Source: Nesterenkonia sp. F
GTDB taxonomy: Bacteria > Actinomycetota > Actinomycetes > Actinomycetales > Micrococcaceae
Direction of reading: 5' to 3'
DNA: 64,000 nucleotides
Assembly: GCF_000220985.1 (NCBI RefSeq)
Contig: NZ_AFRW01000095.1
Coordinates: forward strand, 1-64,000
Under the pieces are notes generated by a model. That model was not told where the DNA came from. It was given only the letters and a program-made list of their open reading frames with translations, and ran no database searches. Positions 52,020 to 57,088 of the stretch are shown here, piece by piece; position 1 is the stretch's first letter; every line of letters begins with the position of its first letter. The translations under genes and the position numbers were made by a program.

Positions 52020-53390
52020 ATGACCCCGCATCCCGCCCGCGACGCCTCGCCGACGGCCGAGCCGCTCGGCGAACCGGTGGTCCGCACCCTGCGCGACGGC
52101 ACCCGCCTGGTCGACCGGCGCTTCCGCGTGCCGCTGGACCACGCGACGCCGGCGGGCGAGCATATCGAGGTCTTCGCCCGCGAGTTCGTCTCCGCCGAGG
52201 CCGTCGGCCGCGGCGAGGAGCACGTCGCGTCGATGCCCTGGCTGCTGTTCCTTCAGGGCGGGCCCGGCGGCAAGGGCTCGCGTCCGGCACGATTGACCGG
52301 CTGGATGCAGGAGGCCGCCGGGCGCTTCCGGATCCTGATGCTCGACCAGCGCGGCACCGGCCGCTCGACCCCGCTGACCCGGCGCAGCATCGCCGACCGC
52401 GGCGAGGTCGCCGCGCAGGCCGAGCACCTGCGCCGCTTCCGCGCCGACGCCATCGTCGCCGACGCCGAGCGCATCCGACGCGCCCTGGGCGTGGAGAGCT
52501 GGAGCGTGCTGGGCCAGAGCTTCGGCGGATTCTGCACGCTGACCTACCTCTCCTTCCACCCCGAGGGCCTGGATCGGGCTCTGCTCACCGGCGGCCTCGC
52601 CCCGCTGACCGGCCACGCCGACCGCGTCTACCGGGCGACCTGCACGCGGATGCGGGCGCGGAACGCCGAGCACTTCGCGCGCTTCCCCGAGGACCGCGAG
52701 CGGCTCGACGGCGTCGTCGACCATGTGCGCGCCCATGACGTGCGGCTGCCCGACGGCTCGGCGCTGACCGTGCCGCGGCTGCAGATGCTGGGGATGCGGC
52801 TCGGCGGGAACACCCGCGCCGACTCGCTGCACTATCTGCTCGAGGAGGCCTTCGAGGACGTGGCCCGGACCCGCCTGGCCGACAGCTTCCTGGCCGAGGT
52901 CGGCGCCGAGATCTCGCTGGCCGACCGGCCGCTGTACGGCCTGATCCACGAGTCGATCTACGGGCAGCCGGCCGAGCGCACCGACGGCCGCGGAGCCACC
53001 GCCTGGGCCGCCGAGCGCGTGCTGGCCGAGCACACCGACTTCGCCTCGGACGCCGAGTCCCCGCTGCTGCTCGGCGAGATGTTCTTCCGTGAGCATGTCG
53101 CCGGCGACCCGGTGCTCGCTCCGCTGCTCGAGACCGCCGAGGCGGTCGCGACGATCGACGACTGGGCGCCGCTCTACGACCTGGAGCAGCTGGCGCGCAA
53201 CGAGGTGCCCGCCGCCGCGGCGGTGTACACCGACGACGTGTACGTCGATCGAGACCTCTCGCTGGAAACGGCCTCCCGCGTGCAGCATCTGCAAGTGTGG
53301 GAGACCGACGAGCTCCACCACGACGGACTCGGCGACGACGGCGCCCGCGTGCTGCGCGAGCTGCTGCACCGCACCGACGCGCCGCGCTGA
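52020..53390 (+). CDS. alpha/beta hydrolase, S33 proline iminopeptidase-like
   Basis: A 456-residue peptidase: oxyanion region FLQGGPGGKGS, LDQRGTGRST, nucleophile elbow LGQSFGGFCTL with the catalytic Ser, and a late His in TDELHHDGLG. This agrees with the S33 proline iminopeptidase group, which removes N-terminal Pro. No signal peptide. AGGAGGAG lies upstream of ATG 52020. It is 89 bp after the helicase gene, so perhaps a separate unit. Confidence 0.9.
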   Translation: MTPHPARDASPTAEPLGEPVVRTLRDGTRLVDRRFRVPLDHATPAGEHIEVFAREFVSAEAVGRGEEHVASMPWLLFLQGGPGGKGSRPARLTGWMQEAAGRFRILMLDQRGTGRSTPLTRRSIADRGEVAAQAEHLRRFRADAIVADAERIRRALGVESWSVLGQSFGGFCTLTYLSFHPEGLDRALLTGGLAPLTGHADRVYRATCTRMRARNAEHFARFPEDRERLDGVVDHVRAHDVRLPDGSALTVPRLQMLGMRLGGNTRADSLHYLLEEAFEDVARTRLADSFLAEVGAEISLADRPLYGLIHESIYGQPAERTDGRGATAWAAERVLAEHTDFASDAESPLLLGEMFFREHVAGDPVLAPLLETAEAVATIDDWAPLYDLEQLARNEVPAAAAVYTDDVYVDRDLSLETASRVQHLQVWETDELHHDGLGDDGARVLRELLHRTDAPR

Positions 53391-53455
53391 CGCGCCGCTC
53401 CGAGGTCCCGCGCCAGAGACCGACGACGCAGGTCGCGCCGTCCGGCCTCGGCCGC

Positions 53456-54685
53456 TCAGCCGCGCGGGGGGCCTCCGCCGAGATCCTCGGGGCGCAGCTC
53501 GCGGTGCTCGACGCCGTGGGCATCGTCCAGCACCGCCAGGTACCGCTCGCGGTGCTCGATCAGCGCATCCTTGTGCTTCTCGGGCACCTTCTCGTAGCGG
53601 GCCCGCCACCGGTCGACGGCCTCGCGGGCGGCGTCGAGCTCCTGCTGCGTCCCGCCGGACTCCACCAGGGTCAGGTACTTCCGCGAGGACTGCTCGGCAT
53701 TCTGGATGGCCCGCAGGGCCCGGCCCTTCGGCGCCAGCAGCGAGGCGACCACGGTGATGACGAGCACCACCAGGATCACCAGCAGCGACAGGCCCGTGGG
53801 CACCTCGGCGACGTGGACGCTCTCGCCGTCGTTGATGAAGGGCAGCTTGTTCTCGTGCAGGGCGTGGAGCATCAGCTTCACCCCGATGAAGCCCAGGATG
53901 ATGGCCAGACCGTAGGAGAGGTAGATCAGTCGATCCAGCAGGCCGTCGATGAGGAAGTAGAGCTGACGCAGTCCCATCAGCGAGAACGCCGTGGCGGTGA
54001 ACACGATGTAGGGCTCCTGGGTGAGCCCGTAGATCGCCGGGATCGAGTCCAGCGCGAAGAGGATGTCGGTGCCGCCGATGGCCACCATCACCAGCAGCAT
54101 CGGCGTCATCATCCTCTTGCCGTCGACGCGGGTGACCAGCCGGTCGCCGTCGTAGTGGTCGGTGGTGGGGATGACCTTCTTCGCCAGCCGGATGAAGATG
54201 TTGTCGGCCTCGTCGGCCTCGTCGCCGGTGAGCTCCTTCTTCAGCAGCTGCCCGGCGGTGAGCAGCAGGATGATGCCGAAGAGGTAGAAGACGTCGCTCC
54301 AGACGCTGATGATCCCGGCGCCGGCGAGGATGAAGGCCGTGCGGGCGATCAGCGCGAAGACGATGCCGAAGAGCAGGACCTTCTGCTGGTCCTCGCGGGG
54401 GACGTTGAAGCTGGCCATGATGACCAGGAAGACGAAGAGGTTGTCCACCGAGAGCGCCTTCTCGGTGACGTAGCCGGCGTAGTACTCGGTGGCTCCGGCA
54501 TGATCGCCGACGACGAGGAAGACCAGGCCGAAGAGCAGCGCCAGGGCGATGTAGATCGTCGACCAGACGGCGGCCTCGCGGATCGAGGGCGCGTGGGCCT
54601 TGCGGACGTGGGCGAAGAAGTCGAAGAGCAGCAGGCCGGCGATGACGGCGATGGTGATGCCCCAGATGGGCACGGTGTATTCCAT
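53456..54685 (-). CDS. TerC family integral membrane protein
   Basis: A 409-residue membrane protein with about nine hydrophobic segments. The paired acidic motifs ALSVDNLFVFLVIM and GGTDILFALDSIPAI are diagnostic for TerC and are thought to bind metal. The last 100 residues are cytosolic, charged and helical. TerC/Alx proteins export manganese. A yybP-ykoY riboswitch precedes it, which supports a Mn2+-efflux role. SD GAAAGGA lies 9 nt before ATG 54685. Confidence 0.93.
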   Translation of the reverse strand: MEYTVPIWGITIAVIAGLLLFDFFAHVRKAHAPSIREAAVWSTIYIALALLFGLVFLVVGDHAGATEYYAGYVTEKALSVDNLFVFLVIMASFNVPREDQQKVLLFGIVFALIARTAFILAGAGIISVWSDVFYLFGIILLLTAGQLLKKELTGDEADEADNIFIRLAKKVIPTTDHYDGDRLVTRVDGKRMMTPMLLVMVAIGGTDILFALDSIPAIYGLTQEPYIVFTATAFSLMGLRQLYFLIDGLLDRLIYLSYGLAIILGFIGVKLMLHALHENKLPFINDGESVHVAEVPTGLSLLVILVVLVITVVASLLAPKGRALRAIQNAEQSSRKYLTLVESGGTQQELDAAREAVDRWRARYEKVPEKHKDALIEHRERYLAVLDDAHGVEHRELRPEDLGGGPPRG

Positions 54686-54693
54686 GGACGGAG

Positions 54694-54734
54694 TCCTTTC
54701 ACGAGGTCGCTCGCGGACACGGGCAGGCCTCGTG
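54694..54734 (-). promoter_or_regulatory. expression platform of the terC riboswitch
   Basis: CACGAGG (54728-54734) can pair with CCTCGTG (54700-54706), immediately next to the SD AAAGGA (54694-54699). The first arm overlaps the P1 3' strand of the aptamer, so the hairpin and P1 exclude each other. This predicts translation on when Mn2+ is bound. Confidence 0.6.
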
Positions 54735-54867
54735 AGTCTCTCCGCCCGATGCCGCCGGCCCGTCCCGGAGCAGGCCCCGGCGGGCGGTCGGCGCGAGCCG
54801 CCGTCCCCGGCGGGCCGCCTTCGGCCCGCGTGCTGACGTGGACGACGCGGCAGGATACTCCCTCACG
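54731..54867 (-). promoter_or_regulatory. yybP-ykoY (manganese) riboswitch upstream of terC
   Basis: The minus-strand leader begins CGTGAGGGAGTATCC and ends AGAGACTCACG. P1 is CGTGA/TCACG (54863-54867 with 54731-54735). Next to P1 are the conserved loops GGGAGTA on the 5' side and AGAGAC on the 3' side, and CACGTCAGCACG lies in the second half, as in other members. The element is about 137 nt, precedes a TerC gene (a regular partner) and begins at the predicted start site. Structure was judged by eye. Confidence 0.8.
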
Positions 54868-54876
54868 CGCATGCCC

Positions 54877-54882
54877 ATCATA
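54877..54882 (-). promoter_or_regulatory. -10 element for the riboswitch-terC transcript
   Basis: TATGAT on the minus strand. The expected start near 54870 coincides with the 5' end of the riboswitch. Confidence 0.6.
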
Positions 54883-54925
54883 GCCGCTCGGCCGCCGCCC
54901 GGCACCATGACGTCCCGGGCGAGGA

Positions 54926-57088
<2,163 letters not shown>

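Follow-up and report, generated by a model that had tools for sequence, protein, structure and literature searches.

A yybP-ykoY-type aptamer in the terC leader of a Nesterenkonia-like genome, probably a manganese riboswitch acting on translation

The leader of E. coli alx has been named as a Mn-sensing riboswitch (PMC9603457). In the solved aptamers of the class, Mn2+ is reported to be bound by five phosphates and by N7 of an invariant L3 adenosine, while A10 in L1 is described as making a cross-helix A-minor contact and Mn2+ as stabilising the switch helix P1.1 (PMC6754395). The terC gene of V. parahaemolyticus is reported to lie 3' of a yybP-ykoY riboswitch and its product to export Mn; Mn raises its expression about 38-fold, and the same account gives no significant rise with Fe, Zn, Cu, Co or Ni, Ca being outside the metals compared (PMC13274385). 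TerC proteins of B. subtilis are reported to be metal loaders for exported enzymes (PMC10550928). The leader of the C. glutamicum terC gene cg2157, with an observed 5' UTR, is reported as scoring 49.13 bits with RF00080 in an earlier Rfam (PMC3890552), so that actinobacterial members of the class were already known. Within the titles and abstract starts that we searched, subscription papers lying mostly outside this scope, we found no Mn riboswitch of Nesterenkonia or the Micrococcaceae.

We analysed a stretch of 64,000 nucleotides (hereafter the window) from a Nesterenkonia-like genome whose TerC is 96% identical to that of N. halophila. On its minus strand uvrB is followed by terC, with a yybP-ykoY-type leader between both genes. 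An earlier sequence-only reading had taken the downstream gene as terC, correctly: its product falls in the TerC/Alx subfamily (TIGR03718) with 355 bits against a cut-off of 246.4, and shares 35% identity with E. coli Alx in an alignment of 318 columns. The leader contains a yybP-ykoY-type aptamer at 54867-54731 (minus strand). The features, all on the minus strand, are given below in order of transcription; R1 is a covariance model that we built from 40 actinobacterial terC leaders, none of them from Nesterenkonia, and constancy refers to a set of 42 aligned rows.

54926-57088, minus: uvrB, upstream neighbour of terC
54877..54882, minus: -10 element TATGAT; predicted start near 54870, no more than about 3 nt from P1
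54731..54867, minus: aptamer, P1 to P1 (R1 match 54729-54870; MFE fold of the isolated aptamer identical)
54862..54867, minus: 5' strand of the P1 switch helix, CGUGAG, pairing with 54736-54731 over 6 bp; P1 covaries
54856..54861, minus: 5' side of L1, GGAGUA, constant in 42/42
54853..54855, minus: 5' strand of P1.2, UCC, pairing with GGA at 54741-54743; changes of UA to CG and of CG to UA
54799..54847, minus: P3, with L3 and P4 inside (P3, 54847-54840 with 54806-54799; P4, 54829-54823 with 54816-54810)
54839-54829, minus: ACGUCAGCACG, named in the sequence-only reading and confirmed
54830..54838, minus: L3, CGUCAGCAC, with GUCA constant in 42/42
54748..54798, minus: variable hairpin region, completing the predicted three-way junction (helix 5, 87.7% of cells paired)
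54740..54747, minus: 5' arm of the clamp stem, GGGCGGAG, including the 3' strand of P1.2 and one L1 base
54741..54743, minus: 3' strand of P1.2, GGA, from fold and covariation
54737..54740, minus: 3' side of L1, GAGA (AGA constant in 42/42, the first G in 38/42)
54731..54736, minus: 3' strand of P1, CUCACG, common to the anti-P1 stem
54728..54735, minus: 5' arm of the anti-P1 stem, UCACGAGG, from the fold; uses the 3' strand of P1
54699..54706, minus: 3' arm of the anti-P1 stem, CCUCGUGA, adjoining the SD; 8 bp
54694..54699, minus: Shine-Dalgarno (SD) sequence AAAGGA, looped between the anti-P1 and clamp stems
54686..54693, minus: 3' arm of the clamp stem, CUCCGUCC, between SD and AUG
54685, minus: start codon ATG of terC
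53456..54685, minus: terC, 409 aa (PF03741, 160.7 bits; NCBIfam R_switched_Alx, 355 bits)

In the target, GGAGUA faces GAGA(C) between P1.1 and P1.2, as is usual for L1, and we take A54859 as probably equivalent to A10, conserved in the solved aptamers, the mapping being our own. The Mn-contacting adenosine of L3 is present as A54834, the likely counterpart of the residue whose N7 binds Mn2+ (A41 in L. lactis, A48 in X. oryzae). The helix P1.2 (UCC/GGA) comes in addition to the elements named in the sequence-only reading. The isolated aptamer folds into the aptamer structure (MFE); the fold energy of the whole leader is no better than that of shuffles (z -0.59). The target has no helix between P1.2 and P3 and therefore not the four-way junction of the solved aptamers. 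We do not treat this junction as defining, because E. coli alx also aligns without it, and the three-way junction is a known variation, since a member with one has been reported (PMC9495176). The spacer from P1.2 to P3 measures only 5-7 nt in 37 of the 40 rows on which R1 was trained.

Comparison with N. halophila shows 62 identical nt at 54747-54686, and within the aptamer five differences, four of them in the variable hairpin and the fifth in P3, where the pair is kept (C-G to U-G). Between the uvrB stop and the -10 box, 44 nt hold 13 differences and a gap. This pattern of conservation fits the riboswitch reading.

R1 was derived from 110 terC loci, of which 9 repeats were dropped, leaving 101 distinct upstream stretches; GGAGTA, GTCA and GAC occur in this order in 83 of them, and 18 are without the motif. 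Nesterenkonia contributes 21 of the 83 motif leaders, and 62 lie outside the genus. From the latter, 40 were chosen by hand to thin near relatives, and P1, P1.2, P3, P4 and the last variable hairpin were imposed on this training set (A1) as its structure. The constancy of the core in the 83 leaders and in A1 arises partly by selection, because the search expression demands GGAGTA, GTCA and the GAC end.

Applied to the window, R1 matches 54729-54870 on the minus strand with 52.1 bits (E 2.9e-11), with P1 and L1 at the places where the sequence-only reading had put a yybP-ykoY core with GGGAGTA and AGAGAC loops; the next-best place in the 64 kb reaches 10.8 bits. In the host genome the target is the sole match with E<1, a second one (C126, 16.8 bits, E 1.35) being at chance level. 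The same model finds E. coli alx (46.4 bits, E 4.1e-11), and has no match at E<=10 on E. coli mntP. R1 thus covers one type of the class only, and the target, matched by one model together with the established member alx, belongs with the alx type.

Covariation is seen in the helices P1.1, P1.2 and P3. The imposed structure pairs 88.4% of the cells of A1, as against 69.4% in shuffles, and two-sided changes fall in 203 cells, with 60.5 in shuffles and far fewer, at most 70, in slid controls. We also assembled the 42-row set, comprising 40 places found by R1 and hand-picked from the order-wide list, the target and alx, none of them repeating a training row. Here 94.7% of cells pair, 22 of 23 pairs show two-sided changes (294 cells, 89.1 in shuffles) and P1.2 swaps UA for CG and CG for UA, in an alignment that was fitted to the R1 structure and so favours it; GGAGUA, GUCA and AGAC are constant in all 42 rows, target and alx included, R1 itself leaning to its core. 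All 40 sampled order-wide matches have terC downstream, 39 by tblastn with the TerC N-terminus and the fortieth (L137), for which the search covered only 86 nt of downstream sequence, by coordinates.

Several leaders depart from the common picture. Two are element-like and fail the motif expression: L046, which contains a run of N, and L006 (N. aurantiaca), in which a similar element before terC has L1 GGCAGTA in place of GGGAGTA, a natural change in the core that is constant across the 42-row set. Some genomes have multiple R1 matches, namely three in G174, two of them 2.7 kb apart, and four in G068, where one copy (L163) precedes terC. In Kocuria salsicia (L034) and K. tytonicola (L045), terC follows the end of a uvrB-like reading frame with a short leader that, by eye, is without the element; the switch seems to have been lost or never gained there.

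The covariance model RF00080 had been put forward in the sequence-only reading as the check, with the absence of a hit as grounds for rejection, and no hit was found. A cmscan of the 64-kb window at the gathering level (Rfam 15) returned tRNA only, and RF00080 gave no match at E<=10 either on 54600-54960 with permissive filters or in the host genome. We do not accept this negative as a refutation and hold it to be uninformative, because E. coli alx, a reported Mn-sensing riboswitch, is missed as well (nothing at the gathering level, nothing at E<=1); RF00080 was thus rejected as the decisive test. Even the E. coli mntP leader, with 41.6 bits (E 4.7e-10), stays under the 45-bit cut-off. No match at E<=10 was obtained in 16 related motif-bearing terC loci, and none at the gathering level in 20 loci, 16 with the motif. 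With laxer filters, 19 order-wide R1 loci plus L114 yielded three matches at E<=0.1 (31.7, 19.4 and 18.6 bits), all below 45. A control gave matches in 9 of 14 genomes, above the cut-off in 2. Across the order, RF00080 matches 36 of 149 sampled genomes at E<=10 and R1 101 of 149 at E<=0.01, an uneven contest since R1 was trained partly on the same order. The three order-wide RF00080 matches with E<1e-5 (G094, G138, G152) coincide with R1 elements, and two further R1 elements are weakly touched (19.4 and 18.6 bits).

The printed consensus of RF00080 has GGGGAGUA and GUCA in common with the terC type. It differs in leaving P1 and the two sides of L1 unpaired, in having a hairpin before P3, and in reading CAACAUACUUG..UGGC around L3, and the model misses alx and nearly all examined terC-type leaders. 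Two sequence types within one class can be seen in E. coli, where RF00080 finds mntP and not alx and R1 finds alx and not mntP (L111:1873-2001 and L175:2462-2558). We therefore file the target, which does not reach 45 bits, under the class only and not under RF00080 as scored, since it has no match at E<=10, alx is missed and mntP scores 41.6 bits. The limited reach of the current RF00080 model is a side result of this work: annotation with it misses the terC-type switches of the order, with 0 of 149 genomes over the cut-off.

The claim that the leader begins at the predicted start of a TATGAT promoter held up well. TATGAT lies at 54882-54877, and 76 of the 83 terC leaders have a TANNNT that begins 18-24 nt 5' of GGAGTA, as against 0 to 9 of 83 in the seven other 7-nt bins reaching up to 73 nt upstream. 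A transcript starting near 54870, as predicted, would carry P1 at its 5' end. As a simple promoter scan gave no -35/-10 pair of sigma-70 type, no -35 is claimed.

With the downstream sequence added to the leader, the lowest fold and the centroid both carry the stems UCACGAGG/CCUCGUGA and GGGCGGAG/CUCCGUCC. The first, the anti-P1 stem (8 bp, 54735-54728 / 54706-54699), is the alternative stem beside the SD with which the sequence-only reading had let the 3' half of P1 overlap, and it excludes P1; compared with shuffled versions of the downstream sequence, its length has p between 0.003 and 0.013 (300 shuffles in each of two runs, on L081 and L001, identical in letters). The second, the clamp, closes the spacer between SD and AUG with another 8 bp (p=0.004), and was not among the elements listed earlier. 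The alternative fold and the aptamer are mutually exclusive, because the 3' strands of P1 and P1.2 are common to both. Including the SD region makes the alternative fold the more stable one by about 10 kcal/mol; in the growing transcript the aptamer fold stays within 0.5 kcal/mol of the best ensemble until about 54721, and is 2 to 12 apart from it afterwards. In our judgement this gap is likely more than one bound ion pays, so that switching would have to be kinetic.

The proposal that Mn2+ frees the SD stands in part. P1 does exclude the stem beside the SD, but the SD core (AAGGA) is unpaired in the alternative fold, in the loop between the anti-P1 stem and the clamp, and in the model the SD of the target is not freer with P1 enforced (access 0.50) than without P1, its 5' strand being kept open (0.53). 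We made the same calculation, and the counts of stem and clamp, on 58 of the 83 leaders, those with a TerC match from residue 1 (in a few, residue 2) and a distance from P1 to the start within the limit. Access is higher with P1 enforced in 44 of the 58 (median +0.08; target -0.03), a measure too noisy for the target itself. The anti-P1 stem has at least 6 bp in 29 of the 58 leaders and p<0.05 in 24; it is shorter than 6 bp in the other 29 and, under the rule used, absent from 19 (9 of 18 Nesterenkonia, 5 Dietzia, 5 Kocuria). Among the 39 leaders of the order-wide set, searched over 65 nt after P1 with the start codon disregarded, it reaches at least 6 bp in 34 and p<0.05 in 26, and by our count 17 have the SD sequence GGAGG at the end of its 3' arm. 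The clamp has at least 8 bp in three of the 58 leaders only (L001, L011 and L081, p=0.004 each; two are near-identical), and 4 bp or fewer in 13 of 18 Nesterenkonia. With p<0.05 in only 8 of 58, it was rejected as a general feature, and we keep it as a probable feature of N. halophila-like leaders and L011; in L011, C54744-G54689 of the target is U-A, one compensating change.

Taken together, the locus probably holds a yybP-ykoY Mn2+ riboswitch that acts in cis, belongs by its L1 and L3 to the type of E. coli alx, and turns terC translation on. The aptamer (P1, L1, P1.2, P3 with L3, and P4) covaries across Actinomycetota and is placed just 3' of the conserved -10 box and upstream of terC. At low Mn2+ the second fold would win and hold the SD in a closed loop; Mn2+ would dock L1 on L3 via A54834 and keep P1 shut, the ribosome site would then be open, and the TerC made would lower or distribute the Mn2+ of the cell. 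Homology is what suggests that the ligand is Mn2+, the sign ON and TerC an exporter, and we infer translation as the level of control. For the order-wide relatives with GGAGG within the anti-P1 stem (17/39), closing P1 should free the SD, which points to an ON sign; in the target it is carried over by homology, because the SD there lies beside the anti-P1 stem and not in it. The sequence-only interpretation is thus supported, its observation being right and its reading largely right.

Some Nesterenkonia are haloalkaliphiles, which counts towards a reading in which the same aptamer answers to a signal other than Mn2+ alone, either Ca2+ with Mn2+, or Mn2+ with alkaline pH as a gate; we think this unlikely, if the best placed of the alternatives. 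The predicted three-way junction also speaks for it, as the pneumococcal mgtA aptamer with such a junction is said to bind Ca2+ tighter than Mn2+ (PMC9495176), as do the 17- to 22-fold tighter Mn binding reported for E. coli mntP RNA at alkaline pH and the response of alx to alkaline shock (PMC9603457). However, the position of the Mn-selective adenosine, A54834 in the target, is invariant in 42/42, and of the metals compared for V. parahaemolyticus terC, Ca not among them, Mn is reported to raise expression, with no significant rise for Fe, Zn, Cu, Co or Ni (PMC13274385).

Slightly less probable is that the aptamer is real and controls transcription, by Rho or a weak terminator, and not translation. 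At least one related leader (L073) does carry a U-run after the anti-P1 stem (GACCGGAGGTCTTTTTTCATG), but the target has none, a scan of 53300-55100 gave no terminator-like site on the minus strand, and the stem adjoins the SD in the target and includes GGAGG in 17 of the 39 order-wide leaders. The leader L073 itself, from Corynebacterium dentalis, has the anti-P1 stem GACCGGAGG followed by TCTTTTTTC and then ATG, and so looks like both an SD mask and a terminator.

Lower again we place a reversed sign, an improbable arrangement in which closing P1 would free the strand CCUCGUG to pair with the SD via CCU/AGG and metal would turn terC off. The fold model with P1 enforced does pair the SD bases with CCU, and two Nesterenkonia leaders (L085, L087) read CCUU-CGCGA-AAGG; yet this local hairpin has only 3 bp in the target, closure of P1 should free the GGAGG held in the anti-P1 stem of 17/39 order-wide leaders, the reported terC, alx and mntP cases are Mn-induced (PMC9603457, PMC13274385), and an OFF switch is ill-suited to an exporter. 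Chance GC-rich inverted repeats with no riboswitch, for which one might cite the whole-leader fold (z -0.59) and the silence of RF00080, are already very unlikely given the R1 match (E 2.9e-11), the covariation, the constant core, the kept promoter position and the linkage to terC.

To return to the Mn2+-induced switch of translation, the host assembly has two Nramp matches above the cut-off (importer type) and two repressor domains of DtxR/MntR type, and no match to the MntP exporter at 93% completeness, at which the gene may be missed; with importers and repressors present and MntP not found, TerC may be the main Mn outlet of the host. Its role as a Mn exporter there is suggested by homology, and the sequence is compatible with exporter and metal loader alike. 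The target is an ordinary, well-supported further member of a known riboswitch class, very probably a metal-sensing switch that turns on a Mn-handling membrane protein when Mn is plentiful. The prediction is Mn2+-inducible TerC in the host and, by R1, in 101 of the 149 sampled genomes of the order. One might speculate further, with more doubt than confidence, that the terC leaders of actinobacteria constitute a large branch of Mn2+ riboswitches with a three-way junction, unseen by the present Rfam model, in which a strand of the aptamer itself masks the ribosome site and the response to metal or pH may differ from that of four-way-junction forms; in the N. halophila line the 3' strands of P1 and P1.2 would jointly enclose the SD.

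Among known systems, the C. glutamicum cg2157 leader is like the target in being an actinobacterial terC leader, a likeness of gene and clade. The aptamers of L. lactis (4Y1I) and X. oryzae yebN (6N2V) are reported with the same L1 A-minor adenosine, Mn-contacting L3 adenosine and P1.1 switch helix, and differ in their four-way junction, the target having a predicted three-way junction (PMC6754395). The L3 of L. lactis (UCA41AUUC) resembles UCAGCAC of the target, whereas that of X. oryzae (ACA48UACU) is nearer to the printed RF00080 consensus (PMC6754395), and for this reason we take RF00080 to represent the mntP/X. oryzae type within the class. E. coli alx comes closest: it shares L1 GGAGUA / GAGACC, L3 CGUCA..ACG / CCGG, the order of the helices, the absence, as aligned by the model, of any helix from P1.2 to P3, and the downstream gene family (R1 46.4 bits; 35% identity). 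The sequences of P3, P4 and the variable hairpin differ; the comparison covers the aptamer and the gene family.
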